Below, piece after piece: positions 7,557 to 43,879 of a stretch of 64,000 bases of DNA (the stretch's first letter is position 1; each line of letters opens with the position of its first letter). The notes beneath the pieces were generated by a model that did not search any database, was not told the DNA's origin, and saw only the letters and a list, made by a program, of their open reading frames with translations. Made by a program: the position numbers and the translations under genes. Source of the DNA: Bacteroidota bacterium (lineage in GTDB: Bacteria > Bacteroidota > Bacteroidia > Bacteroidales > GCA-2748055); contig JAHEEC010000004.1 of the NCBI GenBank assembly GCA_024640885.1, positions 13,488 through 77,487 on the forward strand. Reading direction: 5' to 3'.

Positions 7557-7582
7557 CAGCGATTGACAGGATCCCTGGATCC

Positions 7583-12594: not shown

Positions 12595-12599
12595 GAAAT

Positions 12600-14513: not shown

Positions 14514-14545
14514 CTTAATGCACAGAAATTCAAATTACCTGACCG

Positions 14546-14578
14546 CAAAATTATTATAATTTTCAATACCCTTGCAAA
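14546..14578 (-). promoter_or_regulatory. Bacteroidota-type promoter of the nagB-like gene
   Basis: On the minus strand TTTG (14575-14578) and TAATTTTG (14546-14553) are separated by 21 bases, a good match to the -33/-7 consensus. The expected start site is about 25-30 bases upstream of the ATG at 14513. Confidence 0.68.
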
Positions 14579-14582
14579 AAAA

Positions 14583-14598
14583 GTGTGTGCGTACACAC
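14583..14598. promoter_or_regulatory. Predicted LacI-family operator O2
   Basis: GTGTGTGCGTACACAC has the same 6-bp arms and central CG as O1 at 12600-12615, differing only in one spacer base. It lies 4 bases upstream of the -33 box of the nagB-like promoter, the same geometry as O1. Confidence 0.75.
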
Positions 14599-14664
14599 AA
14601 TTTCTCATTTGCAAAGAGACCGGTTTTTCATAAATTTGAAAAAACCTCCCGTGATAGCTATTAA

Positions 14665-14814
14665 AAACAGGCTCCCAGTGAAAATTGGTTCCTGGAGGAT
14701 TTTGTCACCATCCTTGAGCCCGATCACCTCAGGGTGTTTGACCGGGAACATCCCCTCCCCGCAAACACCCTCCAGGGCAACGAGGCCGTGATGGGGTACC
14801 TCCATATCCGCTGA
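14665..14814 (+). pseudogene. Possible C-terminal gene remnant of unknown family
   Basis: In the 326-base space between the nagB-like and enolase-superfamily genes, the plus strand holds a 49-codon open stretch ending in TGA at 14812-14814. Its composition is protein-like (ENWFLEDFVTILEPDHLRVFD, then HPLPANTLQGNEAVMGYLHIR). There is no start codon near its beginning and an in-frame TAA at 14662-14664. I do not recognise the family. It may be the tail of a lost gene or chance. The rest of the space holds the nagB promoter and operator. Confidence 0.3.
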
Positions 14815-14839
14815 CCCTGCAACTGCCGGAAAGGGTGGG

Positions 14840-27921: not shown

Positions 27922-28505
27922 TTCAGTCCCAGCTCCTCTCCATTTTCGAGGAGCCTCATTGACTCCTCCACACGGCTTGCGACAGTGCCCGGCCTTTTGG
28001 CCATGTTGATCCAGATGTTATACTCCCGCTGGCACCTCTGGCTCAGTGCAAAATAGTGATCCCTGGCCACGGGATGGTCCTGGAATGCCTGCATCAGTGC
28101 CCCTGGCAGTTCATCATTCACCTCGGGAGGGCTCACCACCCGGTCCCACCTGCCATTTTCCCGGGCCGCCTCTATCTTGGCCATTCCGTAAGGGGTCATC
28201 CTCCCGGCCAGGATGAGCTCCTCCACCTTCTTCTTATTGATTTCCGACCAGTTACTGGTCGGTTTCCGGGGTGTGAACTTCCGGGCATATTCCAGGTCAT
28301 CGATCCTGAGCACCAGTGAGTCAACCCATCCATAACAGAGGGCCTCGTCCAGGGCTTCCTGGTAACTGAAGGGTACCGGTCCCGATCCCTTCTTCCTGAA
28401 GACGAGCCACACACCATCCGATCTATGGTGGTTCTCCTGCAGCCACGCCTTCCATGCCAGGATGGAGCCTGCACGCAGCTGCTCCAGGGGGTTTTTCTTA
28501 TTCAT
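27918..28505 (-). CDS. YdeI/OmpD-associated family protein
   Basis: The ATG at 28505 (195 residues) overlaps the end of the permease gene by 8 bases, so I prefer it to the longer frame from 28532. The sequence matches YdeI-type proteins: AWLQENHHRSDGVWLVFRKK near the N-terminus, EALDEALCYGWVDS and KFTPRKPTSNWSEINK in the middle, then an OmpD-associated helical tail. Family members are small cytoplasmic proteins linked to stress or antimicrobial peptide tolerance; the biochemistry is not established. Overlaps on both sides show that it is translated as part of the operon. Confidence 0.82.
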   Translation of the reverse strand: MNKKNPLEQLRAGSILAWKAWLQENHHRSDGVWLVFRKKGSGPVPFSYQEALDEALCYGWVDSLVLRIDDLEYARKFTPRKPTSNWSEINKKKVEELILAGRMTPYGMAKIEAARENGRWDRVVSPPEVNDELPGALMQAFQDHPVARDHYFALSQRCQREYNIWINMAKRPGTVASRVEESMRLLENGEELGLK

Positions 28506-31500
28506 TTCTGAGGGCATCATAGATGGAGGCATCCTTCAGGGAGGCCCTGGTGATCAGGTGGATCCAGGCCCAGCCATTGGCCAGGAGGATCACAAGCCAG
28601 GCTACAATGGCGGTAAAAGAGGTCCCCGTATGGGCACTCAAAATGGAGGGAAGGGTGGCCACAATGGCTGCCAGGAAACCTGTCCCAATGCCCGTCAGCA
28701 GCAGGATCATATACTCCCTGACCACCAGTTTCCTGATCCGCTCCCGGCCAAATCCCACGGCTTTCAGCAGGGCCATTTCCTGCTTCCGCTCCAGGATGCT
28801 CCTGGAAAGGACCACCACCAGGCCAAAGGTACCCACCAGCAAGCCCAGCGCACCCATCACCATAAATATGGACAGGTAGGTATTGGTCACCGAGTTGAAT
28901 TCGGAGAGCCGGGTGGCCGTCAGCTGCATCTCCCATCCCAGGTCCCTCATACCCCGGTAGAGTTCCGTGCTGATGGCCGCCGTATCGGCTGTTTCTCCCC
29001 TGACCAGGAATATGTTTGTACCGCTGCTCTGGGGAAATTGTTCCAGGAACCTGCTGCCGGAGATGATCACATTGCCCTGGAAGACCGACGGGGCCAGTCC
29101 CCCGATCAGCAACAGCTTCATGGTCCCTCCCCCGGCATTGGTGTAAAGCAGCGTATCACCCACCTCCAGTCCCAGCCCCCACTTGATCACTGTTTCATCG
29201 GCAATGGCCGGGATGAGCCCGCCGGGCAACACCTGGTCCAGCGAGCTCCAGGGATGCGCTTCATCCAGGAAAGGGGTGCGTGTCAAAAAGGAGAAGCTTC
29301 CGTCAAGCCTCCCGGGGTCCACCCCCAGGATTTGAGGATTCACCACCTTGTTAAGATTCAGGCAACTGGCATCATCGCCGGAGGCAACCCTGAATTGCAC
29401 GAATGAGGTGTTTCCCTCCAGCCCGAATTCATACTGAACCGCCGGATCATTGAGCTGTTTGAGCACAGGTACGGTGGATTCTGCGTAATAGAGGAATCCC
29501 CCGGTGCCACTGGCCGGATCTTCCGAATTCCTGAAAAGGTCCTTCCGGTTGCTTCCCGTGGATACCACCAGGAACGCACCGATGGCAAAGAGGATCACAA
29601 TGGTGATGCTCCTGGTCCGGTTCCTGAGGGCATTTTTCCAGCTCAATCCCCTGAGATCGAATCCCCGCTCCTGCTCCTGCTGCAGGCGTCCCAGGTACCA
29701 CAGGTAAAAAAGCACGGCCGAAATGAGCAATAAACCGCCCGCGGCAAAGAATACCGGCACATTGACCACCTGCCCGCCTGACAGTTGTGAGATTATTAGC
29801 CCCGCCGCGGCGATCCCGGGGAGGAGCGCACCAAGGGCAATGAAGAGCTGACCGGTGATGAATTTCCGTACCGGCCCTCCGGTTGATTTTCCACTGGCCC
29901 GGTGGGATATAAAATGCCGTTTCAACATCCTGGACAAAGGGATATAGAGTGCCAGCACAGAGATGATCAAGGTAAGCACCAGGCCGGTAGCCAGGGTGGA
30001 GGCCCTCACATCCATATGCATCATTTCGGTGCGCACCACATCCCTCCAGACTCCGTTCAGTGCACGGAAAACCAGGTGATTGTAAAGCAATGACAGTGCC
30101 ACACCGGCCAGCCCCCCCACCAGGGCAACCACCAGGCTCTCCGCGGCCATGACCCGCCTGATGATCTTTAAGGGGATCCCCATGACCACCAGCGTCCTAA
30201 GCTGGCTTTCGCGGCTCTCCAGGTTCAGCAGGAAGAGCAGCACCGTGAGAAGGACCCCTGCCAGCAGGAGAAAGAAACTGAGCCCGCCGAACAACTGGCT
30301 GAAATCCACCCCGCTCCCGGCGGCATCAAATCCCTTGGTCCTCACCGATTCCAGTGTAAATCCAAGGGATTGGGGATCAAACCCGTCAAGGATCGACGGT
30401 ACCCGCAAAGCGGCATCCCCTGACCCCATGTCAAACCTGAAGGCAGTGTAAGTCCCAAAACGGTTCTTCCACATCTCCACCGCCTGTGAAACCTGGATGT
30501 AGGCTTTGGGGATCCCGGCGTAACGGTCCCAGTAGTCTTCATCCTTGTCGCGGATCTCCTCCAGGGTGATGGGTACACCCGTATCCCAGTCACGGCAGTT
30601 CCCGGCATCGGAGAGTCCGGGCAGGTCCGGCATCAGTTTCCTGTCGGCGAACCTGCCTTCTATGGGGACCACTGACCTGACCACAAAACCGGAGGTGATC
30701 TCGGTTAATTCACGAAGGGGCCCCACCACGAAATAGGTCAACCGGATGGTATCCCCAACCCCTGCGGAAAGGTCTTCGGCAAGCCATTCATTGATGATGA
30801 TCTCTCCCGCCTTCAGCCACTGGTCGGGCAAGGTGGAGACAAATGAGTAAGGGGTGCTCCTGCCGGAAAAATCAAGGTGGTTCACAAAGTAGGTGATCAG
30901 CGGAATTCCTTCCGGCGTGATGTGATCCAGCTGATCCGAAAGGACATTATCAATGAATACCCGGTCGCTGGTCACCGAAAGCTGCTGAAGGCCGTCAAGG
31001 TATTCCATATTCAGTCCCGCGTCCCGGGCTGAAAAGGATTCCCGGATGACCTCCCGGATCTCATCTTCACCCTCTCCGTCCTTAACCTCCAGCAGCAGTA
31101 CATTGATCCTGCCGGAGAAATCCATGAGCTCCTGCATCCTTTGCAGTGACAGGAACACATTGAAGGGAGCTGCCTGGGAGACTTTCAGGTTGAACCTTCC
31201 CAGCATTGCCTCCCCGGCTATATCAACCACCACAGCCCTGAACGGGACCACCTCCTCCGCGTCTGAAACAAAGGGCGCATTGAGCGGGATCAGGGAAGCC
31301 CGGTTGATCCTCAGGAGTATCTCGTCGCCGATTCCGAGGTTGAGCCTGCTTGCCAGGTTGGCACTGATGATCACGCTGTCACCGGAGAGGGAGCCATAGG
31401 TTCCGTCCAATCCGGCCATCCGGTCAAAATCATGATCCACCCCGATCACCTGCAGGTTGTTGATCCTTTGCTGGCCCCCTGCAGCCACGCCGCTTCCCTC

Positions 31501-31770
31501 CTGGAGCAGCAGGGATGAAACGGGCACATTCAGTTGCCGGGAAATCTTCCCGGAAAGTTCACCTGTAAAATAGCGGTCCCCCGCTTTCAATACGTGGGTT
31601 ACATTGCCAAGGCGGTATTCCACGATCCGGTTGAGGCTGTATTCCACCGAATCTCCCACCATCAGTGCACCGGTCAGCACCGCTCCACTGATGGCCACAC
31701 CAAGTGCCAGCAGGAGGTTTTTCTTCCGGTAATAGATCAGGTTATTCCTTATGAGCCTCAGGATCTTCAT
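28498..31770 (-). CDS. FtsX-like ABC transporter permease (MacB/LolC type)
   Basis: This 1090-residue membrane protein has an N-terminal helix (~20-42), a large extracytoplasmic MacB-PCD-like domain, a first FtsX block of three helices (~500-630), two further helices (~650-705), a second periplasmic domain and a final three-helix FtsX block (~955-1075). The second block contains SRSILERKQEMALLKAVGFG, a typical FtsX coupling region. Such 8-10 helix permeases pair with LolD/MacB-type ATPases to move lipoproteins, lipids or peptides by mechanotransmission rather than a channel. The partner ATPase gene is 19 bases upstream. Confidence 0.88.
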   Translation of the reverse strand: MKILRLIRNNLIYYRKKNLLLALGVAISGAVLTGALMVGDSVEYSLNRIVEYRLGNVTHVLKAGDRYFTGELSGKISRQLNVPVSSLLLQEGSGVAAGGQQRINNLQVIGVDHDFDRMAGLDGTYGSLSGDSVIISANLASRLNLGIGDEILLRINRASLIPLNAPFVSDAEEVVPFRAVVVDIAGEAMLGRFNLKVSQAAPFNVFLSLQRMQELMDFSGRINVLLLEVKDGEGEDEIREVIRESFSARDAGLNMEYLDGLQQLSVTSDRVFIDNVLSDQLDHITPEGIPLITYFVNHLDFSGRSTPYSFVSTLPDQWLKAGEIIINEWLAEDLSAGVGDTIRLTYFVVGPLRELTEITSGFVVRSVVPIEGRFADRKLMPDLPGLSDAGNCRDWDTGVPITLEEIRDKDEDYWDRYAGIPKAYIQVSQAVEMWKNRFGTYTAFRFDMGSGDAALRVPSILDGFDPQSLGFTLESVRTKGFDAAGSGVDFSQLFGGLSFFLLLAGVLLTVLLFLLNLESRESQLRTLVVMGIPLKIIRRVMAAESLVVALVGGLAGVALSLLYNHLVFRALNGVWRDVVRTEMMHMDVRASTLATGLVLTLIISVLALYIPLSRMLKRHFISHRASGKSTGGPVRKFITGQLFIALGALLPGIAAAGLIISQLSGGQVVNVPVFFAAGGLLLISAVLFYLWYLGRLQQEQERGFDLRGLSWKNALRNRTRSITIVILFAIGAFLVVSTGSNRKDLFRNSEDPASGTGGFLYYAESTVPVLKQLNDPAVQYEFGLEGNTSFVQFRVASGDDASCLNLNKVVNPQILGVDPGRLDGSFSFLTRTPFLDEAHPWSSLDQVLPGGLIPAIADETVIKWGLGLEVGDTLLYTNAGGGTMKLLLIGGLAPSVFQGNVIISGSRFLEQFPQSSGTNIFLVRGETADTAAISTELYRGMRDLGWEMQLTATRLSEFNSVTNTYLSIFMVMGALGLLVGTFGLVVVLSRSILERKQEMALLKAVGFGRERIRKLVVREYMILLLTGIGTGFLAAIVATLPSILSAHTGTSFTAIVAWLVILLANGWAWIHLITRASLKDASIYDALRNE

Positions 31771-31789
31771 GTGCGGGCTTTGTTGCCGG

Positions 31790-32473
31790 TCAAATCTGTT
31801 CCAGGTTCCCCTTTCTCAATTCCAGGGTCTTCCCCATTCTTTTGGCCAGGCTGGCAGAATGGGTCACCAGCAACAGGGTCAATCCATCCTCACTGTTCAG
31901 TTCCAGGAGCAGGTCGGCCATCCGCTCCACATTTTCACTGTCAAGCGCCCCGGTGGGCTCATCGGCCAGAAGCAGGGCAGGATTGTTGATCATGGCCCTG
32001 ACCACTGCGGCACGCTGGCACTCTCCCCCCGAGAGTTTTCCCGGAAATTTGTTCCTGTACTCCCAGATGCCTACCCGGTTCATGAGCGCACCTGCCCTAT
32101 CAATTTTTTCCGCCCGCAGGCTTTTATCACGTTCCACAAGGGTTGGAACAAGGATGTTCTCCATGAGCGTGCACTGGGGCAACAGGTGGTGGAACTGGAA
32201 AACGAACCCGATGCTTTGATTTCTGAAACGGTCCATCTCCTGCCTGCTGTAGCCCGTGATATCCTTCCCGTTGAATTGGACGCTGCCCGTATCGGGATGA
32301 TCCATCCCGCCGATCAGGTTCAGCAGGGTGGTCTTGCCGGATCCGGACGGGCCCAGGATGGCAATGTGTTCCCCGTATGAAACTTCCATGGAAAGATGAT
32401 CCAGGACAGGCTGAAAGCCCGGATCGCCGGGTTTGCCAAACCCTTTGCTGACATTCTCGAGTTTTAGAAGCAT
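31790..32473 (-). CDS. ABC transporter ATP-binding protein (LolD/MacB family)
   Basis: This 227-residue ATPase has Walker A GPSGSGKTT (~41-49), Q-loop FVFQFHHLLPQ, signature LSGGECQRAAV (~145), Walker B ALLLADEPTGALD (~165) and the H-loop VTHSASLAKR. The FHHLLPQ Q-loop is typical of the LolD/MacB branch. It forms a two-gene exporter with the downstream FtsX-like permease and starts 8 bases after the glycosyltransferase stop. Confidence 0.92.
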   Translation of the reverse strand: MLLKLENVSKGFGKPGDPGFQPVLDHLSMEVSYGEHIAILGPSGSGKTTLLNLIGGMDHPDTGSVQFNGKDITGYSRQEMDRFRNQSIGFVFQFHHLLPQCTLMENILVPTLVERDKSLRAEKIDRAGALMNRVGIWEYRNKFPGKLSGGECQRAAVVRAMINNPALLLADEPTGALDSENVERMADLLLELNSEDGLTLLLVTHSASLAKRMGKTLELRKGNLEQI

Positions 32474-32481: not shown

Positions 32482-33804
32482 TTAATTGGTGACCTCCACC
32501 GGTGCCCGGGCAGCCGATTTTACGGCGTTCTCGTAAACGGCCACCATGCGTTCGGCCTGGACATCAATATGAAAATGCTGAAGGACCCCTTCCCTTCCTT
32601 TCTTGCTGAGGCGATCCATTTCATCGGGATCCGAGAGGATCCTTTCAAGGGACTGTGAGAGCGATTCCGGGGTATTTTTGTCATAGATGATCCCCCCGCC
32701 CGTAAGATTCACAATCTCCGGGAAAGCCCCCAGGGCGGGCTGCACCACCGGTACGCCGGATACCATGCATTCAAGCAGGTAGATCCCGAATGCCTCGCCA
32801 TTGCGAACCGGGACAGAGACCACTGAAACCTTATCCAGGAACTCCCTCAGGCCCTTCTCCTCAAACTCCTCGTGAAACTCCACCTGGCCGGTAAGGTGGT
32901 GGTCTTTCAACTTTTTCCGGATCTCTGCCAGGTGCCTGCGGTCATCCCCGGTGGATCCCCCCGTAAGCACAAGCTCCACATCCTCAAAACCCGCTTTTTG
33001 TTTTAACAATATAAAGGCATCCACCAGGATATCGGTCCCGTTTTCATGGCACATGCGGGAGATAAAACCGATCTTCCGCTGCTTCCCGCTCACCGGATTA
33101 TAATGATAATCCTCCGGATCCACACCAATATGCACGCTGGTCAGTTTTTCCTCGGGGATCTCCATATTCTTCTTCATCACCCCGGCATAATATTCACTGA
33201 CCGCGATGAAGGAGGTGACATGCTCTGACTTCCTGGACATCAGGCGCCATACACTCTCACGGGCAGATGGTTTCATTACATCCACCCAGACATCTTCATC
33301 CTGCAATGAGCAGATCACGGGCACGTTGGTCCGTTCAGCCAACCTGTGGGCCAGTCCAAGCAAGAGTGCATTGGAAAGGTGGATCACGTCGGGATTGCAA
33401 TTTTCGACGATCCAATCCACCATTTTTTCCAGTTCCTCCTTTTGCTGACCCTCTTCACCCAGCAGCATGTTCACGGTCATCTCTTCCAGTCCGCTGGCCC
33501 TCGTGGATCCTGCAAATTTCGAAGCCAGCTTCAACATGGGCTTTGCATTCAGCAGCCTGTCAACCCATTTCGGGGCTCTCCTGAAGATGGGGAAGATCTG
33601 TTTCAGGTAGATGCTTATGGCCCCGTAAAATACAGGGATCTCCCTGCTCAGGTCATGTTCATCGGCGAACAGGGGCAGGTACATGGGGATCTTTACCACC
33701 GTATGGTCTGATTTTCTGAGGGCCATCACGTACTTGGAATCCCTCAGGCAGTTCCCGCAATAAAAACTGCCCCCCGATCCGGGGATAATATGCATTATTT
33801 TCAT
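32482..33804 (-). CDS. GT4-type glycosyltransferase
   Basis: The ATG at 33804 (440 residues) gives the usual MKIMHIIPGSGGSFYCGNCLRD beginning; the longer frame to 33888 would overlap the propeller gene. It has the two-Rossmann GT-B fold: an N-terminal acceptor domain, IGFISRMCHENGTDILVDAF at the start of the donor domain, VELVLTGGS, and the retaining GT4 EX7E region (NGEAFGIYLLECMVSG). The SFYCGNCLRD start is characteristic of a GT4 subgroup. It begins 4 bases after the propeller gene and precedes the ABC pair, so it could build a glycolipid or glycan for export. Substrates are unknown. Confidence 0.85.
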   Translation of the reverse strand: MKIMHIIPGSGGSFYCGNCLRDSKYVMALRKSDHTVVKIPMYLPLFADEHDLSREIPVFYGAISIYLKQIFPIFRRAPKWVDRLLNAKPMLKLASKFAGSTRASGLEEMTVNMLLGEEGQQKEELEKMVDWIVENCNPDVIHLSNALLLGLAHRLAERTNVPVICSLQDEDVWVDVMKPSARESVWRLMSRKSEHVTSFIAVSEYYAGVMKKNMEIPEEKLTSVHIGVDPEDYHYNPVSGKQRKIGFISRMCHENGTDILVDAFILLKQKAGFEDVELVLTGGSTGDDRRHLAEIRKKLKDHHLTGQVEFHEEFEEKGLREFLDKVSVVSVPVRNGEAFGIYLLECMVSGVPVVQPALGAFPEIVNLTGGGIIYDKNTPESLSQSLERILSDPDEMDRLSKKGREGVLQHFHIDVQAERMVAVYENAVKSAARAPVEVTN

Positions 33805-33808
33805 AGCC

Positions 33809-34972
33809 TTATTTTTTTCCGAAACAATAGAGCCGCCCGTCATCACCGGCCACATAGATGCGCTGGTTGACCACCGCCGGATTGGCATTCACAGGAGTAC
33901 CCAGTTCATAACTCCAGACCGGGCTGCCGGTTTTCAGGTCCAGCAGGAAGATATCGCCCCTCATATTGGCTGCCAGCAACCGCTTGCCAACCACCACCGA
34001 AGAAGCGTCCACCCTGCTCCCGGTATTGTATTTCCAAACCAGTTCACCACTCCTTTTGTTCAGGCAATAGACGAATTTATCCTGGTTCCCGATATAGATA
34101 TGATCCCCGTATACCGCTGGTGATGCCAGGAAGGGCAGGTTAGCCTGCTTGTTTTCAAATACCCAGCTTATTTTCTGGTTCAGAAGGTCCACTGCCGAGA
34201 AACGGCCGTCATAATCCCCCACGAATGCATGATCGCCGTCGATGCAAGCCGAGCTTGCCACGTAGGTGGAGATCGCAAGGCTCGATCTGGATTTACCGGT
34301 GAGGGCATCCACCAGGTGCAGGTAGCCGTCACAACCGCCAAATACGGCCATCCCGTCATAGAGTGCACAGGCCCCATTGATGAAATTATCAGTCTCGTAT
34401 TTCCACAATCCCTTCCCGGTTTCCTGGTCCACCGCATGGAGGTAATAATCGTAACTGCCCAGAAGGATCACCTTTTTTCTTCCGCTGTCATACAGCACGG
34501 GTGATCCCATGATCTGGTTGTCGGTCTTGTAGGTCCACCTGATGTTCCCGGTTTTCAGGTCCACTGCATTGAGTGTGCCGTCAAGGTTTCCGGCGTAGGC
34601 TACCCCGTTGACGATCAGGGCCGGGGCCTCAATGCTGTTCCCTGTAACAATTTTCCAGTTGAGGGTGCCGTCGGCATTGATCCCGTAAAGGCTCCCGTTG
34701 ACGGTCCCCACCACGATGATCCCGCCGCATGCCACCGGGGCGGCCTTGATCCCGGCATCCAGCCTGAAGTTCCAGAGCAGCTCAGGTTTATCGGTAAGGG
34801 TGGCCTGGCTCACTCCTGTAAGTTCAGGATCCCCCCTGAAATTTGCCCAGCAATCAGACCCCTGTGCCATGAGCGGACCAGGAACCAACCACATGCCCGC
34901 CCCCATGGCGAGCCCCAGAGCCATCAAGATGTTGCGGCCAGACCTTTTGCTTCTCTTTATCAAACTTTCCAC
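33809..34972 (-). CDS. PQQ-type (BamB-like) beta-propeller protein, exported
   Basis: This is a 387-residue protein with a basic N-terminus and a signal peptide ending near PLMAQG. The start is GTG at 34972, inside an AAAGT repeat tract; a TTG at 34963 and an ATG at 34924 are alternatives. The mature part contains WANFRGDPELTG and seven or eight repeats of the form G.IYVG...G.LYCLD..TG...W.Y.T, the tryptophan-docking PQQ repeat. No residues typical of true quinoprotein dehydrogenases (adjacent Cys pair, Ca ligands) are visible, so I do not claim PQQ binding. It is next to the iron-sulfur/FAD protein and probably acts in the periplasm. Confidence 0.78.
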   Translation of the reverse strand: MESLIKRSKRSGRNILMALGLAMGAGMWLVPGPLMAQGSDCWANFRGDPELTGVSQATLTDKPELLWNFRLDAGIKAAPVACGGIIVVGTVNGSLYGINADGTLNWKIVTGNSIEAPALIVNGVAYAGNLDGTLNAVDLKTGNIRWTYKTDNQIMGSPVLYDSGRKKVILLGSYDYYLHAVDQETGKGLWKYETDNFINGACALYDGMAVFGGCDGYLHLVDALTGKSRSSLAISTYVASSACIDGDHAFVGDYDGRFSAVDLLNQKISWVFENKQANLPFLASPAVYGDHIYIGNQDKFVYCLNKRSGELVWKYNTGSRVDASSVVVGKRLLAANMRGDIFLLDLKTGSPVWSYELGTPVNANPAVVNQRIYVAGDDGRLYCFGKK

Positions 34973-35009
34973 TTTACAAACTTTTCACTGTTCAAACTTT
35001 ACACTTTCA
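34961..35009 (-). repeat. AAAGT-type short repeat tract, junction A
   Basis: On the minus strand this reads as irregular copies of AAAGTNT/AAAGTTTG (AAAGTGT, AAAGTTTG, AAAAGTTTGT, AAAGTGG, AAAGTTTG). It fills the spacer between the FAD/FeS gene and the propeller gene and extends into the latter's first codons, so its start codon lies inside the repeats. Confidence 0.65.
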
Positions 35010-36555
35010 GACTCAGCGCCCCCGTGGGGCACGCCACAGCCACCTCCGCAGCTGCCTGTTTCAGACCACGGTCAAGGGTCTCGTGAAAGGGGATCCCCAC
35101 AACTACCTCAAATCCCCTGCCAATAAATGTCAGCCCCAGCTCCTCCTTATAGTTTTCGGTGATCCGGACGCAGATCCCGCATTTGATGCATTTGGATGGC
35201 TCATAGATCACCCGGTCATGCTGGTCCTGCTTTGTGCACAGGACCCGCTCGTCGGACCTGTATTTTTTCTGGTCAGCCCCGTAGGCATCGGAATAGATCC
35301 GCAAACTGCACTGGTGCTGGTCACGGCAATCGCAGTGCAAACAGCGTGCGGCCTCCGCCATCACCTGCCCGGGGGTGAACCCGGCTGAAAGAAGTTCAGG
35401 CTCGATGCGATTTCCAGGGACCGATTCCTTGAGGTACTCTGCATATTCGGCCGGCAACAGCTTCCCGAACCTGGAGTTGAATACGAAGGGCTCGCCCTTC
35501 ACGCTCTTCCCCGAGAGGAACTGGTCCACGCTGAATGAAGCCTCCTTGCCCTGTCCCAGCGCCCGGATTGCCATTTTTGAAGGCCTCAATGCGCTCCCCA
35601 CCACGAATACCGCCGAACCGTCCACCTGGTAGGTATTCATATCCGCTTCCACTCCCCTATCCTGCATGGGAAGTCCCCACCCGGAGACCCCGCTTTCGCC
35701 TTTCCCAGTGGCCACGATCACCGCATCATTGGCCTTGAGAAGGGCACTAAAACCATCACTGTCGACCTCTTCGTTGAACCTGAAGGCCACCCCCGTCTTC
35801 GCAATTGTCTCTATTTCAGTATCGAGAACAGCAGGCGGAAGCTCCCCTTCCCCTACCTCTTTGCGCATGCTGCCTCCTGCCTTCCCGTTGCGGTCAATGA
35901 CCGTACACCGGTGTCCTTTCAGGGCAAGATGGTAGGCCGCTGCAAGTCCCGCAGGACCCGCTCCGATGATCACAACCTTCTTCCCGGTGTCGGGCATGGC
36001 AGAGGGTATCCAGTGGGTCTCTTTTTCCAGGTCATGGTCCCCCGCCGCCCTTTTCAGAAGGCAGATGGACACTGCGCCGTCCATTGGTTTTCGCCGGCAG
36101 GCCCCTTCGCATGGGGCCGGACAGATCCTGCCAAGCACAGAGGGCAAAGCAATGTCCTGTTTGACAACTTTCATGGCCTCGGAGAATTTTCCTTCGGCCA
36201 GCAACCTGTTCATGCGCGGAATGTCCATATGGGCCGGACAGGTGACCTGGCATGGAGCCTCACAATCCCCCACATGCTCACTGAGCATCAGCTCAAGAGA
36301 TGTTTTCCGGGCATCGAAAACCTCCTCATCCATGGAAATGATATCCATTCCCTCCTCCACTGACAGTGAGCAGGACGGGATGATCCTGCCGCTGTTGCGC
36401 TCCTTCACCACGCAGACCATGCAGGAGGTAAAGTGTTCCGCATTCTCCAGGTAGCACATGGAAGGCACCTCCGCGCCTGTCTCCCTCACCACATGCATCA
36501 GGACAGCGCCTTCTGCGGCCTCAACCTCCCTGTTATCGATTTTTAGCTTCACCAT
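34999..36555 (-). CDS. FAD and iron-sulfur oxidoreductase (NuoG-like [2Fe-2S] + GltD-like, lacking the NAD(P) domain)
   Basis: The ATG at 36555 gives 518 residues. A NuoG/HydA-type [2Fe-2S] domain has Cys at ~34, 45, 48 and 62 (C-x10-C-x2-C-x13-C). A GltD-type FeS helical domain follows, with CEAPCQVTCP (~98-106) and CPAPCEGACRR (~145-153). The FAD motif VVIIGAGPAGLAAA is at ~194-207. Only about 110 residues separate it from the closing FAD region (VFVVGSAL, ~316), so the second Rossmann domain that binds NAD(P)H in GltD, NfnB and StnA is absent. The C-terminal part holds RCLHCDCRDQHQC and a KCIKCGIC cluster. The gene begins 14 bases after the NuoEF-like fusion, its probable electron partner. 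Electrons likely enter or leave through FeS clusters. Confidence 0.82.
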   Translation of the reverse strand: MVKLKIDNREVEAAEGAVLMHVVRETGAEVPSMCYLENAEHFTSCMVCVVKERNSGRIIPSCSLSVEEGMDIISMDEEVFDARKTSLELMLSEHVGDCEAPCQVTCPAHMDIPRMNRLLAEGKFSEAMKVVKQDIALPSVLGRICPAPCEGACRRKPMDGAVSICLLKRAAGDHDLEKETHWIPSAMPDTGKKVVIIGAGPAGLAAAYHLALKGHRCTVIDRNGKAGGSMRKEVGEGELPPAVLDTEIETIAKTGVAFRFNEEVDSDGFSALLKANDAVIVATGKGESGVSGWGLPMQDRGVEADMNTYQVDGSAVFVVGSALRPSKMAIRALGQGKEASFSVDQFLSGKSVKGEPFVFNSRFGKLLPAEYAEYLKESVPGNRIEPELLSAGFTPGQVMAEAARCLHCDCRDQHQCSLRIYSDAYGADQKKYRSDERVLCTKQDQHDRVIYEPSKCIKCGICVRITENYKEELGLTFIGRGFEVVVGIPFHETLDRGLKQAAAEVAVACPTGALSLKV

Positions 36556-36569: not shown

Positions 36570-38915
36570 TTACCTTATTATCACAGCATTTTCGGGACAT
36601 ACCTGCCTGCACCCGTCACACTGGATGCACAGCTCATTGTCCACCACATGTTTCTCATGGGGCTTGAAAGCGATGGCATCCACCGGACAGTCCTGGGCGC
36701 ATAATGTACAGCCAATGCAGTCATCCGTAATCTCATATTTGATCAGCGCCTTGCATCTCCCGGCCGGACACTCCCCCCTGATGTGGGCCTCATACTCTTC
36801 CCTGAAGTACCTGAGGGTGGAGAGGATGGGATTTGGCGCCGTCCTGCACAGTCCGCACAGGCTCCCTTTCCTGGTCCATCCGGCCAGGTGCTCAAGGTTT
36901 ACCAGGTCCTCTTCAGTTCCCTTGCCGGCGGTGATCTTTTCCAGGATCTCAAGCATCCGCTTGGTTCCAATGCGGCCGAAACTGCATTTACCGCATGCCT
37001 CATTCTGTGTAAAAGTGAGGAAATAGCGGGCAATATCCACCATGCAGTCCCTGTCATCGAGCACCACCAGTCCCCCGGAGCCCATCATGGCCCCCACCTC
37101 GCTGAGGGATTCGAAATCGATGGGTGTATCGGACTTCCAGGAGGGCACGCACCCCCCGGAGGGGCCACCGATCTGTACAGCCTTGAAACTCCTCCCGTCG
37201 GCCACTCCCCCTCCGATCTCCTCCACCACTTCCCGTACGGTCATTCCCATGGGAACCTCGATGAGCCCGCCCCGGGCCACCTTGCCTGCCAGTGCGAAGA
37301 CCTTGGTGCCCCTTGATTTCTCGGTGCCGATCCGGTTGAATGCCCCCGCCGAGTTCTTGATAATATAGGCGATCTGTGCAAATGTTTCTGTGTTGTTCAC
37401 CAGCGTGGGCTGTCCCCACAATCCCTTTACCGCAGGAAAGGGGGGCCTGATCCTCGGGAATCCCCTTTTCCCTTCAATGGATTCCATGAGGGCGGTCTCC
37501 TCCCCGCAGACAAACGCACCGGCGCCCTGGTATACTGTCAGATCAAAATCGAACCCGGTCCCCAGGATATTTTTTCCCAGGTAACCCCCGGCACGGCAAA
37601 TTTCTATGGCTTGCAGCACACGGTTTACCGCAAGGGGGTACTCCGCCCTGATATAGAGAATCCCTTCCCGGGCCCCTACGGCATAACCTGCGGCGATCAT
37701 CCCCTCCAGGATTCGGTAGGGATAGGATTCAAGCAACATCCGGTCCATAAAGGCCCCCGGATCCCCTTCATCCCCGTTGCAGATCACATATTTTGTATCG
37801 CTGCGGCTGGCAGCCACCATCTTCCATTTTTGTCCCGTGGGGAACCCGGCTCCTCCCCTTCCCCTGATCCCGCTTTCGGTGATCTCCTGGATCACCTGTT
37901 CGGGGCTCATCTCCTTCAGCACCTTTGTCAATCCCCTGAATCCGTTTCGCTGCTTGTACTCTTCCACATCAATGGGATTGATGACCCCCCTGAATTCTGT
38001 GGCCATGGGCACCTGCTTTCCAAGGAAGGAGGAGACATGCTTTTCCCTTACATCAAGGGAATACCTCTCCACCCCGAGCCACCTGCTGTCATCACGGACC
38101 GAATCGGCGGCCTGGAGCAGTTTGCCGGAGATCCGCCTCAGGAACCCCTTTGGCTGAAAATGATTTTCAACGATCTGCTCCACATCGGCAGCCTTTACCT
38201 TTGAATAGAGGGTGGGCTCCCCCTCTGTGGGTACGATCTCCACCAGGGGTACCTGGTGACACATCCCCACACACCCCACATGTTTCAGCTTCACATTCAG
38301 ACCCTGCCTGTCGATGGTATCCCTCAGGGTATCCCTGATCTCATCGCTTCCGCTGGCCACGCAGCATGAACCCAGGCCGATCCGTATCTCTCCCTTCACC
38401 TCGCTGCCGTCGGCATATTTGTACCGTTTCTTCTTCCCTTCCGTCTTCTGGCTCTCAAAATCACGAAGGATGGAACCCACACTGGAGGTGGTTACATGTC
38501 CGTAGGTCACCTGGTCGATCTGGACCACCGGGGCCAGTGTGCAACATCCCAGGCAGTTGACTTTTTCAACCGTGTAGCTCCCCGAAGCGGTGGTGTCCTC
38601 ATGCCCCTCAAGGTCCAGTTCCCGTTTCATGGAGTCGTAGACCTGCTCGGCCCCCTTTACGTGGCAGGCGGTTCCCACGCACACCTTGATCATGTGTTTT
38701 CCTGCGGGTGTGAACCTGAACTGGGAATAGAAACTGGCCACACCCACGATGCGTGCCGGAGTGATCTCTGATATCTCGCACACCCTCCTCAGGGCCTCTT
38801 CCGGAAGGTAATTATAGCGCTCCTGTATGGCCTGTAACACGGGAATCACCGCATTCTGGCTCTTCCCCAGCTTCTCTATGATCTGATCTATATCTCTTAA
38901 CTCAACTTCCGCCAT
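36570..38915 (-). CDS. HydC-HydB-like (NuoE-NuoF) fusion, NADH-oxidising flavin/iron-sulfur subunit
   Basis: The 781 residues form four modules. A NuoE/HydC thioredoxin-like [2Fe-2S] domain has Cys 79, 84, 121 and 125. A second thioredoxin-like domain as in HydB has Cys 184/185, 215 and 219. A NuoF domain (~300-700) has the FMN/NADH loop RGRGGAGFPTG at 351-361 and GAGAFVCGEETAL. A C-terminal pair of [4Fe-4S] clusters follows (CIGCTLCAQDCP, CIQCDGCRQVCP). HydB and HydC are normally separate proteins. The NuoF N3-type cluster is odd: C641-x2-C644 then Gly at 647 where Cys is expected, and later C687-x2-C690, with an extra Cys. It should exchange electrons between NADH and FeS carriers. No hydrogenase catalytic subunit lies in the window. 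Confidence 0.9.
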   Translation of the reverse strand: MAEVELRDIDQIIEKLGKSQNAVIPVLQAIQERYNYLPEEALRRVCEISEITPARIVGVASFYSQFRFTPAGKHMIKVCVGTACHVKGAEQVYDSMKRELDLEGHEDTTASGSYTVEKVNCLGCCTLAPVVQIDQVTYGHVTTSSVGSILRDFESQKTEGKKKRYKYADGSEVKGEIRIGLGSCCVASGSDEIRDTLRDTIDRQGLNVKLKHVGCVGMCHQVPLVEIVPTEGEPTLYSKVKAADVEQIVENHFQPKGFLRRISGKLLQAADSVRDDSRWLGVERYSLDVREKHVSSFLGKQVPMATEFRGVINPIDVEEYKQRNGFRGLTKVLKEMSPEQVIQEITESGIRGRGGAGFPTGQKWKMVAASRSDTKYVICNGDEGDPGAFMDRMLLESYPYRILEGMIAAGYAVGAREGILYIRAEYPLAVNRVLQAIEICRAGGYLGKNILGTGFDFDLTVYQGAGAFVCGEETALMESIEGKRGFPRIRPPFPAVKGLWGQPTLVNNTETFAQIAYIIKNSAGAFNRIGTEKSRGTKVFALAGKVARGGLIEVPMGMTVREVVEEIGGGVADGRSFKAVQIGGPSGGCVPSWKSDTPIDFESLSEVGAMMGSGGLVVLDDRDCMVDIARYFLTFTQNEACGKCSFGRIGTKRMLEILEKITAGKGTEEDLVNLEHLAGWTRKGSLCGLCRTAPNPILSTLRYFREEYEAHIRGECPAGRCKALIKYEITDDCIGCTLCAQDCPVDAIAFKPHEKHVVDNELCIQCDGCRQVCPENAVIIR

Positions 38916-38988: not shown

Positions 38989-40842
38989 TCACTGCCCGAT
39001 GCCATAGAGGTGGCTGTCACCCCTGAGGTATACCATCCCGTCCGAAAATACCGGGAGCGCGTACCCCGACTCACCCAGATCCGGTTCACCAATGAGCGTA
39101 CCCGACCGGTCGGCTTTCAGGATGTGCATCACACCCCCCACATCCATGGCATAAAGTTTTCCATCGGCGACCATGGGCGAGGAATAGAATCCGTCATTGA
39201 ACTCCTTTTCCCAGACTTTCGCGCCCGACTTCGCATCGTAACACACCAGCACTCCGTAGCTGGTGGCCACCCATAGCAATCCGTTATAGGCCACGGGACT
39301 GGCCACCTCTGCCAGGTATTCGTCATCCTCCCAGGTAAAGGTGGTTCCCGCCTGGGGCTTTACGGCCACCAGCCTGGCATATTCATTGGTGGCAAAGACA
39401 AGGCCCTCTCCATATGCAATGGAGGGTGCCACTTCGCCCATCATGGCCTCCACTTTCCAGATCTCGGCGCCGGTTGCCAGGTCGTTGCCCATCACATAGG
39501 GATCTGCCGAGGTGACCACCTGAATCTTCCCGCCCGCCTCGACAAGTGCCGGGGATGCCCAGGAGATATGCACCGGCCGCTGCACATCCCACAGGGTCTC
39601 TCCGTTTGCCGTATTGAGGGCAAGCAACCTGCCCCCGCTGTTGGTATCATACTGGATCACCAGTTTGTTTTCCCACACCTGGAGCGAGGAGGAGTGGCCG
39701 TAATGGTTGCCGGGAACCCCCAGGTTCCTTCCCCACACCTTGTTGCCATTCAGGTCGAAGGCAATCACATCGCCGGTGGCAAAAATGGCATATACCCTTT
39801 TCCCGTCCACGGCCATGGTAGGTGCTGCCAGGCCCGTATCTTCGGTCACCTTCGGGGCAGTGGCCGGTGAACCCGGGATACCGGTGACCGCCTTCTCCCA
39901 GAGCAGCTGGCCCGTAAGCCGGTTGTAGCAGGCCACAATCCTTGACTGGCTGTCTCCTCCTGATATGAACAGCTTATCGCCCCAGATGACAGGCGAATTA
40001 AAACCTGGCTTGGAGAAGGCTACCTTCCATTTAATATTATCACCGGTGGAGCCGTTCCAGCTCACCGGAATATTTTTTGAGTATGAAACTCCCAATCCCT
40101 GGAATCCCCGGAATGTGGCATGGTTCTTCTTAAAATCCTCGCGGTTGAAAGGGGTGGAGGCGGCAACAGCGGCTGAGGGAGCCTGGTTTGCACCGGTCCC
40201 TTCATCGGGAAGTCCTTCCTGTCCTTCTGCCACGACTGCCACGGCCTGTCCCGTTTCGGTTCCAGGGGCACCGGCTAAAGCTGACGTATCCCCGGCTGTT
40301 CCGAATACATCGATCACCTCCACGCCTGTCTCCACTGGCGCGGCCTCGCCTGATGCGCCCATTCCCTGGTAACCTTTCAGATAATCATTGCTCACATAGG
40401 CAGCCACCAGTGAGAGCCCCAGGATTAGACCGCCCGAAAGGAACAGCCAGTACTGGGCGTTGGCCCTTGCTTTCAGGAGTTGTTCGGTAACCTCCCCGGG
40501 CTGCTCGATCCCGGACCGAAGGTCGGTGTGGACCTTCACTGAGACCGCCAGGATAATCCCCCCCACCAGCAGCAGCCAGGTACCGGTCCTGATCTGCCAG
40601 CGGGCTGTAAAGTATGCCTTGCGTGCCAGAAGGTCAAAACTCCGGATCTCTTCCTTCAACTCCTCGTTGTTGGGTTCCCCGGACAACCGTTCCACCAGGG
40701 CCACAATGGTCTTGCTTTCCAGGGGCTCATTCTGTTTCATGTGCCAGAAATTGAGCAGGAGAAGCAGGGCCACCACCCCGCAGAATATCCCCGATACAAG
40801 CGATGCCCTGTAGGCTATTTTCAGTTTTGTATTATTATCCAT
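38989..40842 (-). CDS. Membrane-anchored PQQ-type beta-propeller protein
   Basis: This 617-residue protein has three hydrophobic segments at ~13-31, 87-103 and 130-150. A low-complexity Ala/Gly/Glu linker (~155-240) follows, then a propeller of PQQ-type repeats (~245-617). Repeat examples are IVACYNRLTGQLLWEKAV, LLALNTANGETLWDV and VLVCYDAKSGAKVWEKEF. Three membrane helices place the N-terminus and the propeller on opposite sides of the inner membrane. There is no heme motif. The gene lies between the NosR/NapH-like membrane ferredoxin and the NuoEF-like fusion, so it may anchor or scaffold a membrane redox complex. Confidence 0.8.
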   Translation of the reverse strand: MDNNTKLKIAYRASLVSGIFCGVVALLLLLNFWHMKQNEPLESKTIVALVERLSGEPNNEELKEEIRSFDLLARKAYFTARWQIRTGTWLLLVGGIILAVSVKVHTDLRSGIEQPGEVTEQLLKARANAQYWLFLSGGLILGLSLVAAYVSNDYLKGYQGMGASGEAAPVETGVEVIDVFGTAGDTSALAGAPGTETGQAVAVVAEGQEGLPDEGTGANQAPSAAVAASTPFNREDFKKNHATFRGFQGLGVSYSKNIPVSWNGSTGDNIKWKVAFSKPGFNSPVIWGDKLFISGGDSQSRIVACYNRLTGQLLWEKAVTGIPGSPATAPKVTEDTGLAAPTMAVDGKRVYAIFATGDVIAFDLNGNKVWGRNLGVPGNHYGHSSSLQVWENKLVIQYDTNSGGRLLALNTANGETLWDVQRPVHISWASPALVEAGGKIQVVTSADPYVMGNDLATGAEIWKVEAMMGEVAPSIAYGEGLVFATNEYARLVAVKPQAGTTFTWEDDEYLAEVASPVAYNGLLWVATSYGVLVCYDAKSGAKVWEKEFNDGFYSSPMVADGKLYAMDVGGVMHILKADRSGTLIGEPDLGESGYALPVFSDGMVYLRGDSHLYGIGQ

Positions 40843-40843: not shown

Positions 40844-40878
40844 CTTTACAACTTTACAACTTTACAATTTTGGGACTT
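40844..40878 (-). repeat. AAAGTTGT octamer tract, junction C
   Basis: On the minus strand three near-perfect copies of AAAGTTGT run up to the ATG at 40842 of the membrane propeller gene. The tract also covers the stop region of the membrane ferredoxin gene. It is the clearest octamer array in the window. Confidence 0.7.
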
Positions 40879-42148
40879 TTTCCACCGGGCAAAAATCCAT
40901 GCATCTTCCGCAGCTGAAACAATCCCCCTTGTGCGGTTCATAATCCTCCCTCCTCCTGAACACCACCTGGTTCATCAACGTGATCCCCAGTGCCAGTCCG
41001 ATGAATCCTCCAAATGCCCAGCCTCCCTTTTTAAATTTATTGCGGATCACTGTGGCCCTTTCAACCAGCTGATCAAAGGTCTCCCCCGATTTCAGGAATG
41101 CCTGGATATCCAGGTTCTCCTCGTCCTGCCTCAACTCCGGACTCTTGATCATCAACTCGGCCAGGTACACATCATTATGAACCCGGCTCATGAATATGTG
41201 GGATTTGTATCCGATCCATCCCCCTGCGAGGGTAAGGACCGGGATCAACACGATATAGAGGATGAATTTCCTCAGGTTCCTTCTGGACACTTCCGGGCTC
41301 CTGTATTCCGGGTCCACCGGATATTCGATGGCATCAAAGGGACAGGAATCCTTGCAGAGCTTGCACTTGATGCATTCCGAAGGTGTAATGGAGAGGTGCC
41401 ATTTGGAGAACCTGGAGAGCCAGCCCAGCAGTACTCCGTAGGGACAGAACACCCGGCAGTAGGGACGGGCATAGAACATTCCGAGGATCAGGAAGGTGAT
41501 GCCCAGGAAGATCATCAGGAACGGGCCATCCATCCTGAAGATGCCCACGAAGGGATCGTAGCGGCAGATGATAAAATCGCTTCCGGTGGCCGCAAAAAGG
41601 ATGGACAAACCCAGGTATATGACAGGGATGAATCCAAGGGTCTTCCTGATCCAGCTTGGAATGGAGATGGGATTGACCACCAGGAGGTCCTGGATGGCCC
41701 CAAGCGGGCATGCAGCCGCACAGAATGTCCTTCCGAAAAAGAGGGCGAAGAGCAGGGGCAGCAGGAAGAAGAGCAGTGCGGTCAGGGAGATGGCATAGGT
41801 GGGATCAAAAATGGAAAGGGCCACATTCTGAATGGCCCCGATGGAGCAGATACACCCGTCCCGGTAAAATCCAAAATAGGCCAGTGAAAAGAGGGAAAGC
41901 CAGAGCAATCCCTTCCGGGACCTTTTCCGGATGGCGAGCCAGGAGGCCAGGGACAATACTGCCAGCAACACGAACACGTCGAAATATTCCAGTGCAATGG
42001 CCCTGGGTTCCGGTGTGGTGGGGCTGGGTTGTACATACCCCGAATCAAATTCAGGTTTGGGAAACCGCTGCTGGGCGGCGAGAAAATTCCCGGCCAGCAT
42101 GGAAAGCAGGAGCAGCAGGAGCGCAATGGTTCGGGTCCTTTTCCCCAT
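40862..42148 (-). CDS. NosR/NapH-like membrane polyferredoxin
   Basis: The ATG at 42148, one base before the preceding stop, gives 428 residues and a signal-like first helix. About six membrane segments carry paired CxxxCP-type motifs (TFCAAACPLGA, PYCRVFCPYG), a DGCICSIGA motif and a RYDPFVGIFR motif. These are the layout of the membrane half of NosR and NirI and, more loosely, NapH. Two [4Fe-4S] ferredoxin motifs follow: CIKCKLCKDSCP and, at the extreme C-terminus, CFSCGRCMDFCP. The periplasmic FMN-binding domain of NosR is absent. It should carry electrons across or along the inner membrane, between the NuoEF/FAD proteins on one side and the exported ferredoxins encoded just upstream. Confidence 0.85.
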   Translation of the reverse strand: MGKRTRTIALLLLLLSMLAGNFLAAQQRFPKPEFDSGYVQPSPTTPEPRAIALEYFDVFVLLAVLSLASWLAIRKRSRKGLLWLSLFSLAYFGFYRDGCICSIGAIQNVALSIFDPTYAISLTALLFFLLPLLFALFFGRTFCAAACPLGAIQDLLVVNPISIPSWIRKTLGFIPVIYLGLSILFAATGSDFIICRYDPFVGIFRMDGPFLMIFLGITFLILGMFYARPYCRVFCPYGVLLGWLSRFSKWHLSITPSECIKCKLCKDSCPFDAIEYPVDPEYRSPEVSRRNLRKFILYIVLIPVLTLAGGWIGYKSHIFMSRVHNDVYLAELMIKSPELRQDEENLDIQAFLKSGETFDQLVERATVIRNKFKKGGWAFGGFIGLALGITLMNQVVFRRREDYEPHKGDCFSCGRCMDFCPVEKVPKL

Positions 42149-42149
42149 A

Positions 42150-42728
42150 TCAGCCCTCCTCCTCCTTGATGAAACTACCCTTGACCTTATAAGGTTCGTC
42201 GGCAGGAACCCGGCTGATGGCCTTTGACGGACAGGACCTTGCAATGGCACACTGGTTGCAGTTCAGGCATAGGTCATGCCTGATCTGCAGGTGCAAAGAG
42301 CCGTTCCCGAAAGAGGAGCAGCCTTTCACGCACTTGGCACATCCGATGCAAAGATCCTCGTCAATGACATATTCGAAATAGGGTTCCTCAATAAATCGGC
42401 GCTGGATGGCAGTGGTGGGGCACAGCTGGTTTTCCGCCCCGGTCTGAAGTTTTGCCCCGGGCTTAAAATATCCGCCACACAGGTCGCAATAGCCGCAAAG
42501 GTCATATGCATGTACACATTTTACTGCCGAATCGGCCTTGACACACTCGGTGGCGCAGCGGCCGCACTGGGTGCACTTGAAAGGATCGATCTGCCATACA
42601 TAGTCCTTCCCCGTGGATGAACGGGCCAGGGTCAGGACACCGGTCCCGAGGACTGTCAACCCCAGGGTAAGCCTCACCCCGTTATTGATAAATTCCCTCC
42701 TGTTGTAACCCTTATCCTTTTTGTCCAT
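42150..42728 (-). CDS. Tat-type exported polyferredoxin (NapG-like)
   Basis: The ATG at 42728 (192 residues) puts a twin-arginine-like NRREFINNGVRLTLGL at the N-terminus. The mature protein has multiple cysteine clusters: CTQCGRCATEC, then CVHAYDLCGYCDLCGG, CIGCAKCVKGC and CLNCNQCAIARSCP. These fit three or four [4Fe-4S] centres. NapG and related periplasmic ferredoxins have a similar plan and work with NapH-type membrane partners. It overlaps the preceding small gene by 17 bases and is followed after one base by the membrane polyferredoxin. Confidence 0.83.
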   Translation of the reverse strand: MDKKDKGYNRREFINNGVRLTLGLTVLGTGVLTLARSSTGKDYVWQIDPFKCTQCGRCATECVKADSAVKCVHAYDLCGYCDLCGGYFKPGAKLQTGAENQLCPTTAIQRRFIEEPYFEYVIDEDLCIGCAKCVKGCSSFGNGSLHLQIRHDLCLNCNQCAIARSCPSKAISRVPADEPYKVKGSFIKEEEG

Positions 42729-42918
42729 AATTGCGGGTATTTTCTGCTTCCGGTAAATCACATCTCTTCAGTTTATTGCAGCTCCTGCACTGGAAGTCAT
42801 CGGAGCACGCTTCACCGAGGACCACCTGTCTTCTTGACACCAGGATCCCTCCCAGTGCGAAAAGCACAGCCACCAGGCCGCCCCGGGCCGCACGGTTTAA
42901 GAAATATCTTCTATCCAT
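42712..42918 (-). CDS. Small Tat-type membrane-anchored cysteine protein
   Basis: From the ATG at 42918 the product is 68 residues: a twin-arginine-like MDRRYFLNRAARGG, one hydrophobic segment, and a short tail with ACSDDFQCRSCNKLKRCDLP. The four Cys (C-x4-C-x2-C-x5-C) could ligate one FeS cluster or metal. I do not recognise a named family. It overlaps the NHL gene upstream by 8 bases and the polyferredoxin gene downstream by 17, so it is very probably translated and part of the same complex. Confidence 0.7.
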   Translation of the reverse strand: MDRRYFLNRAARGGLVAVLFALGGILVSRRQVVLGEACSDDFQCRSCNKLKRCDLPEAENTRNYGQKG

Positions 42919-43879
42919 TGCCTTTGGGTTCAAAAATTCTTACCATATCCCTGTCAAAATCAAGGGCATAAATGATACCCTGTGTATCAACGCATACATC
43001 AGGGGCCTTCCCCTCCTCCTTGAAGAGCCTGGGGGGAGCCACCACACTTAAGAGTTTCCCGGATTGGTCATAGATCTTGATCCGAACGATCCCCTTCTCG
43101 CTGGTGACAAAGGAGCCATCTCCCAGCACGGTGATCCTTGCGGGATTACAACATCCCATGAATCCTTCAATATCGAAGGAGGTATTCTCCCAGAAACCCC
43201 TCAACCGCCCTTCGTCGGTGTAATTTTCGATGGAATGTTTGCCGGGATTCACCACCCACAATTCCCCGAAACCATTCACCACCAGGTCAAAATTGGCACT
43301 GGGCACAATAAATCCGTGGCCATCGTCCGTTTCCGATTTGCCCTCAAATTCTCCCTGGATCTCCCCGCTGCTGTTATAGATTACCACCTTCCTGTTGCCT
43401 GCGTCTGCCACATAGACCCGCTCCCCCTTGATGGCCAGCGAAGTGACCACGGCACGTTCACCCAGTCCGCTCCACTGATCAAGCAGCAATCCGCCATGGC
43501 TGTATTTTGCCACAAAATCATTGTACCCCACATAGAGGTACTTCTCATCCGCGGCAATGCATGTGGAATTGGGCAGAATGGCGTAGAGGCCTTCAGGGGT
43601 TCCAGCCCTGGAGATCACCGCAAGCGAGGAATCGCACGCGATGAACAGGGTGTCATTAAAACAGCATATTCCGGATGCTTTAAGGGATCCCAGCGAAAAG
43701 TTTCGCGTCTCCAGGTGGGAGATAAGTTTTTCATCCACATCCCTGTATTGATCCACATCCAGGGCATATGGATTCTCTCCGCGCCGGTCGGGACGCTTGG
43801 TGAGGAAATCGAACAGGATCACACCGATGATAACTGCCAGGATCACAAGTACCACTATGGTCAGGCTTCTCTTTTTCAT
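42911..43879 (-). CDS. Membrane-anchored NHL/six-bladed beta-propeller protein
   Basis: The protein has 322 residues with an N-terminal anchor (KKRSLTIVVLVILAVIIGVILF). A propeller with NHL-like blades follows, for example VTSLAIKGERVYVADAGNRKVVIYNSSG, and further blades ending near GIIYALDFDRDMVRIFEP. Several Cys (ICCFND, STCIAAD, MGCCNPARI) are scattered and lack a cluster motif, apart from the CC pairs. Such propellers usually bind proteins or small ligands. The position between the PQQ-type propellers and the ferredoxin genes suggests a periplasmic scaffold role in the same assembly. Confidence 0.8.
   Translation of the reverse strand: MKKRSLTIVVLVILAVIIGVILFDFLTKRPDRRGENPYALDVDQYRDVDEKLISHLETRNFSLGSLKASGICCFNDTLFIACDSSLAVISRAGTPEGLYAILPNSTCIAADEKYLYVGYNDFVAKYSHGGLLLDQWSGLGERAVVTSLAIKGERVYVADAGNRKVVIYNSSGEIQGEFEGKSETDDGHGFIVPSANFDLVVNGFGELWVVNPGKHSIENYTDEGRLRGFWENTSFDIEGFMGCCNPARITVLGDGSFVTSEKGIVRIKIYDQSGKLLSVVAPPRLFKEEGKAPDVCVDTQGIIYALDFDRDMVRIFEPKGNG

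Follow-up and report, generated by a model that had tools for sequence, protein, structure and literature searches.

Introduction

The nearest relatives of known structure to the protein described here, FADA, are StnC of Sporomusa ovata (8oh5_C) and the large subunits of the NfnABC complexes of Caldicellulosiruptor (9bov_A) and Thermococcus sibiricus (9n5u_A). In the S. ovata Stn complex, the GltD-like protein is StnC, and StnA is HydC-like (PMC10482914); an earlier reading of this DNA from the sequence alone had cited StnA as the GltD-like protein, which is corrected here. The FAD of StnC terminates the electron-transfer chain and does not lie between clusters, the FAD-proximal cluster C7 has K170 among its ligands, and little Stn activity was left in the R239A variant (PMC10482914). 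These proteins belong to a wider setting, the Bfu family, whose Types 1-4 pair a complete BfuBC core with a feeder subunit resembling BfuA; the described third partners are hydrogenase, formate, NADP, F420, CO, pyruvate, aldehyde, benzoyl-CoA, Nuo/quinone and rubrerythrin (PMC9304861). That classification has no NapGH-like type, and clades without an obvious third substrate were noted in it (PMC9304861).

FADA is encoded in the window, which is the whole stretch of 64,000 nucleotides that was analysed (Table 1). It resembles the BfuA/StnC proteins of the Nfn-Bfu group in its order of a [2Fe-2S] domain, a GltD double cluster, an FAD domain and a NuoG-type Fe-S region, and in having a HydBC-type partner. 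In contrast to StnC and NfnABC, however, FADA has neither the NADPH domain, which is a defining feature of StnC, nor the Asp of the GD motif that closes the FAD site, and the equivalent of StnC R239 is mostly lost. FADA also retains only one cluster of the StnC dicluster and has no FdhF-like C-terminal domain, and the HydC and HydB partners are fused. The nearest clade in our tree was PRK12814 (NCBIfam NF009454, "putative NADPH-dependent glutamate synthase small subunit", a 657-aa model). PRK12814 proteins share the N- and C-terminal Fe-S layout of FADA, including Cys165 and K168, but they have the NADPH domain and no HydB or HydC neighbour in the six loci examined; FADA scored 374 bits against NF009454, below the curated cut-off of 916.

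Table 1. Features of the FADA locus, with positions numbered along the window.
Feature	Positions	Strand	Comment
FtsX/MacB-type permease (28498-31770) and ABC ATPase (31790-32473)	28498..32473	minus	conserved neighbours
GT4 glycosyltransferase with invariant CGNC motif	32482..33888	minus	conserved neighbour
PQQl, PQQ/BamB-like propeller directly after FADA	33809..34972	minus	cluster member
FADA, BfuA/StnC-type Fe-S flavoprotein without NADPH domain, 518 aa	34999..36555	minus	
FADA C-terminal Fe-S region	35017..35346	minus	C405, C408, C410, C416 and C456, C459, C462, C509
FADA single FAD-type Rossmann domain, residues 190-350	35506..35988	minus	motif counts and model
NADPH-domain deletion site, FADA residues 284-316	35608..35706	minus	alignment to long form
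FADA GltD/DPD-type double [4Fe-4S] region, residues 94-168	36052..36276	minus	Pfam Fer4_20
FADA NuoG-type N-terminal [2Fe-2S] domain, residues 1-75	36331..36555	minus	Pfam Fer2_4; C34, C45, C48, C62
HydC-HydB (BfuC-BfuB) fusion (HydCB), 781 aa	36570..38915	minus	complete bifurcating core by sequence
HydCB B1 [4Fe-4S] ligand region, residues 641-690	36846..36995	minus	CGKCSFG...SLCGLC instead of CxxCxxC...SLCGLG
PQQtm, membrane-anchored PQQ/BamB-like beta-propeller	38989..40842	minus	cluster member
NapH/NosR-like membrane polyferredoxin	40862..42250	minus	Fer4_5 and Fer4 domains
Tat-signal ferredoxin (Fd)	42150..42761	minus	Cys for four [4Fe-4S] clusters, NapG-like arrangement
NHL-type propeller with invariant GCCNP motif	42911..43879	minus	cluster member
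PQQ1, PQQ/BamB-like propeller	43906..45333	minus	cluster member

Overall architecture of FADA and comparison with solved complexes

The FADA reading frame is intact and runs from 36555 to 34999. Pfam profiles matched Fer2_4 (residues 1-72), Fer4_20 (98-178), one FAD/NAD-type Rossmann domain (from 192) and a C-terminal Fe-S region (452-514), and the Pyr_redox_2 profile matched by the first 108 of its 291 positions only. The FAD domain is flanked on either side by Fe-S clusters, as the sequence-only reading had observed. The short spacing between the FAD motifs that it had noted was also confirmed: about 118-123 residues separate the GxGxxG motif (198-203) from the closing FAD segment (316-321). 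In a phmmer comparison with 9bov_A, the alignment was split, with FADA residues 1-292 matched to 3-294 and residues 268-514 to 419-671, so that approximately 125 residues of the chain were skipped; 8oh5_C gave the same pattern. The match to the GltD/NfnB-type subunits of StnABC and NfnABC was full-length, with an NADPH domain of about 150 residues cleanly missing. At this site FADA contains 33 residues, compared with 183 in a long form of the PRK12814 type from the same phylum, and the lost part includes the dinucleotide motif GGGNTAIDAARTALRLGA.

The AlphaFold2 model of FADA, built from 74 sequences, showed a pLDDT of 89 and a pTM of 0.86 (with 18 sequences, the pLDDT was 66), and its sole Rossmann-type domain was found at residues 193-347. 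Upon superposition on 9bov_A, 8oh5_C and 9n5u_A, 497-499 of the 518 residues were overlaid with an rmsd of 2.3-3.2 Å and Z-scores of 38-40, spanning chain residues 3-675 or 10-702 of the solved complexes. This comparison with the Nfn and Stn structures, which the sequence-only reading had suggested as a check, revealed no NAD(P) domain in the FADA model; the alignment gap and the single Rossmann-type domain of the model both bear out the proposed loss of the NAD(P)H-binding domain.

The homologue set comprised 86 non-redundant FAD-bearing proteins, of which the named ones were from Bacteroidota except for one labelled Chlorobiota. The NADPH domain was missing in 86/86, and because all homologues share this state, a frameshift or assembly artefact was ruled out as the cause of the short FADA. 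The 19 conserved Fe-S cysteines, H94 and K168 were invariant in the same 86 proteins; these residues comprise C34, C45, C48 and C62 of the [2Fe-2S] domain, H94, C98, C102, C106, C145, C149, C153, C165 and K168 of the double [4Fe-4S] region, and the C-terminal cysteines. All residues that align with the ligands of clusters C3-C7, the FAD-proximal Lys among them, were invariant; the assignment to C3-C7 is by alignment.

Distribution of the NADPH domain and HydC-HydB fusions

A scan of genome contigs gave 471 relatives, of which 80 were kept, and a plasmid search gave distant matches only. Among 198 genomes of the window's order, we found 29 full-length single-frame HydC-HydB fusions. By coordinates, the short FADA was adjacent in 19, on the same contig but farther off in one (L177) and on another contig in four, while the remaining five had a still shorter homologue. 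No neighbour with an NADPH domain was found beside any of the 29 fusions, which answers in the affirmative the earlier question of whether homologues beside HydC-HydB fusions all lack the domain. StnC-type partners of about 1200 aa, in which the NADPH domain is present, adjoin unfused hydC and hydB; the broader proposition that every HydB-type neighbour lacks the domain was therefore rejected. These observations support the view that NADPH-domain loss tracks HydC-HydB fusion.

In the tree of FADA Fe-S parts, all NADPH-less forms were grouped (support 99/98) beside PRK12814, with StnC as the outgroup. Since the NADPH domain is present in PRK12814 as well as in StnC, a single loss in the FADA lineage is the simplest reading of this topology. 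Cys165 was considered as a residue arising with the deletion, and this was ruled out, as the PRK12814 long forms also carry it.

A separate observation concerns the locus L177 (G562, about 3700-14900), where FADA lies about 12 kb from HydCB owing to an insertion of about 10 kb of unrelated genes, including apparent SNF2-type helicase and DNA methylase genes; the cluster is otherwise conserved.

Conservation and deletion of the flavin domain

The fingerprint of the FAD domain was retained in part in the FAD-bearing homologues: the GxGxxG motif and the GG loop were each present in 86/86, and the acidic residue after β2 in 84/86. Because GxGxxG and the GG loop are universal, most members probably still bind FAD, which may be functional there. 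The Asp of the GD motif, however, was found in 0/86 homologues (Asn in 56, Ser in 27, Ala in two and a gap in one), and the StnC R239 equivalent was Arg in only six of the 86, compared with 28/28 long forms. Relative to the Fe-S parts, conservation of the FAD domain was about 10 points lower in the FADA clade and one point higher in PRK12814, and the invariant residues remaining in the FADA domain were nearly all glycines. Judged by these conservation patterns, the FADA flavin domain is under relaxed constraint.

Deletions were also observed. The second half of the FAD domain was lost in L050 and a part of it in L049, and five genomes (L172-L176) encoded, between HydCB and a PQQ propeller, a homologue of 327-366 aa in which the whole FAD domain was deleted; the GltD cluster region joins the C-terminal Fe-S region directly, and the Fe-S ligands are kept. 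In a quick tree of HydCB, the FAD-less forms were nested among FAD-bearing ones with two origins. The FADA tree alone was compatible with one or two FAD losses (72/73) and the HydCB quick tree favoured two, so that the FAD domain was apparently deleted in two independent events, with some FAD-less relatives sitting on long branches.

These data bear on how the flavin is used. The sequence-only reading had regarded the FAD as a likely internal relay, and an obligatory relay between the flanking Fe-S clusters would suit both the retained fingerprint and the presence of clusters at both ends of FADA. We nevertheless consider this quite unlikely: the whole domain is deleted in five genomes that retain the clusters, partial deletions occur in L049 and L050, the GD Asp and (in 80/86) the R239 equivalent are lost under relaxed constraint, and the StnC FAD ends its chain (PMC10482914). 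It is also conceivable, if unlikely, that the domain was re-purposed, with the FAD exchanging electrons with a new protein or small molecule at the face bared by NADPH-domain loss, and that some lineages later dropped this branch; the deletion would bare the flavin pocket in the model, and the fingerprint persists in the 86 FAD-bearing members. A new partner site fits poorly with the loss of the R239 equivalent and the GD Asp, with a set of invariant residues made up nearly entirely of glycines, and with the existence of lineages lacking the domain. That FADA as a whole is a decaying remnant without function is barely credible, although its domains were lost stepwise, given the invariant 19 cysteines, H94 and K168 and its fixed position in an operon conserved over many families. 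We instead favour a dispensable FAD: because at least five genomes delete the domain and keep the clusters, electrons can presumably pass without it.

Relocation of a cysteine, a putative ligand of the FAD-proximal cluster

K168 of FADA corresponds to K170 of StnC, a C7 ligand (PMC10482914). A fourth Cys near one cluster was found at position 165 in FAD-bearing members and at 142 in FAD-less relatives. In particular, C165 occurred together with K168 in FAD-bearing members, whereas all FAD-less members had C142 without K168; L179, with a degenerate FAD domain, also had C142 and no K168. Each of the 55 aligned rows had a Cys at either 139-143 or 163-166, and none had it at both. Because these sites are mutually exclusive, a Cys is retained when FAD and K168 are lost, which hints that the cluster survives flavin loss through a change of ligand, with C142 and C165 as its putative ligands.

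The HydCB partner and the conserved gene cluster

HydCB residues 171-780 aligned to 9n5u_B (E 6e-207), and the N-terminus is a NuoE-type [2Fe-2S] domain. The BfuB features were all recognized, namely the FMN site, the B1 cluster, the N-terminal [2Fe-2S] and the C-terminal two [4Fe-4S], together with the BfuC [2Fe-2S]. Because its cluster, FMN and NAD motifs match those of the B subunits of StnABC, NfnABC and HydABC, HydCB is, by sequence, a complete BfuBC core that would bifurcate NADH and ferredoxin. The sequence-only reading had named an NADH-oxidising partner; the NADH-type partner stands, and the predicted cofactor set goes further, to that of a full bifurcating BfuBC. In the B1 region, the third Cys of CxxCxxC is replaced by Gly, and the Gly of SLCGLG by Cys. 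This swap was perfectly correlated (Gly/Cys in 12 loci and Cys/Gly in 74), and the Gly/Cys state was limited to the window's genus and close relatives.

FADA and HydCB are part of an 11-gene cluster common to many Bacteroidota families. The order PQQ1-NHL-Fd-NapH-PQQtm-HydCB-FADA-PQQl-GT4-ABC-FtsX was found from the window's genus to Prolixibacteraceae, Saprospiraceae and Cyclobacteriaceae, and the genes in the window are separated by short gaps, the longest of 149 bases, or overlap. In the NapH-like protein, 15/15 Cys were 100% conserved in 63 sequences; in the Tat ferredoxin, 16/17 Cys were 100% conserved and the Tat RR was conserved in at least 97%. Sequence matches of both proteins in the PDB were weak only. 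NapGH is a quinol dehydrogenase module formed by membrane-bound NapH and a Tat-exported four-cluster ferredoxin. The cluster likewise has a membrane NapH-like protein adjoining a Tat-exported four-cluster ferredoxin, but the NapH-like protein scored only 36.5 bits against TIGR02163, far below the NapH cut-off of 213, and no nitrate reductase is encoded in the conserved cluster. Compared with the list in PMC9304861, none of the described Bfu third partners is encoded in the conserved cluster; unlike Types 1-4, it encodes the NapH-like protein, the Tat ferredoxin and propellers. No description of the 11-gene cluster was found in the freely available papers searched.

Invariant residues that might bind metal or act in redox chemistry were present in the propeller proteins, namely GCCNP in NHL, C184, C214, H111, H159 and H256 in PQQ1, and NHYGH in PQQtm. 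They could form a periplasmic redox site. The GT4 glycosyltransferase has an invariant CGNC (C44, C47) and C193 in 59 homologues, which is odd for a GT4 enzyme.

Some loci depart from the common arrangement. In G612 (L181, 6451-9051), FADA and the following propeller lie in one frame of 867 aa with a hydrophobic joint and no Met at the junction, and the two may thus be naturally fused. A few Mariniphaga-like loci have FADA with the propeller, GT4 and ABC genes, with no HydCB or NapH within the flank examined. A Mariniphaga MAG (L105, 1233-5055) has FADA-PQQl-GT4-ABC-FtsX after heme-synthesis-like genes (HemN, HemG and ferrochelatase types), with no HydCB in the flank examined.

Discussion

We consider it reasonably probable that FADA, a variant of BfuA, is an NADPH-blind Fe-S conduit that joins the bifurcating HydCB core to a further electron partner, most likely the NapH-like protein and the Tat ferredoxin. 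As judged from the sequence and the model, FADA derives from an StnC/PRK12814-like NADPH:FAD:Fe-S protein and has lost the NADPH-binding domain. Electrons would move between the HydCB core and FADA via clusters equivalent to C3-C4-C5-C6-C7 of StnC, for which the ligands are conserved in FADA and the order is carried over from the StnC structure. C7, which in StnC is fed by NADPH via FAD, would now serve as an outlet to another partner, and FAD is perhaps still bound in most members, yet dispensable. The likeliest outlet partner is the co-conserved NapH-like membrane protein with the Tat-exported four-cluster ferredoxin. We propose a route from the core through FADA and NapH to the periplasmic ferredoxin because the gene order recurs and the Tat motif and cluster Cys are conserved; the proposal is drawn from gene neighbourhood and cluster content. 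From gene order, this chain may in turn feed a reaction of the propeller proteins in the periplasm, or be fed by it. We favour electron flow from NADH and reduced ferredoxin to the periplasm over the reverse direction.

More tentatively, with the balance leaning slightly against it, the locus may represent an undescribed Bfu class, common in Bacteroidota, that has a transmembrane NapGH-like chain to the periplasm as its third partner; its feeder would be evolving from an NADPH flavoenzyme to a flavin-free Fe-S wire, and the fourth ligand of the proximal cluster would relocate with flavin loss.

The homologues of this one electron-entry subunit form a natural series, from NADPH, FAD and Fe-S, through FAD and Fe-S, to Fe-S only, and the last two stages occupy the same operon slot. 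With this series, the idea that BfuA merely feeds a fixed bifurcating core can be tested directly. The locus points to an uncharacterised bifurcating-type system of hundreds of Bacteroidota genomes, which might connect NADH and ferredoxin with the periplasm.
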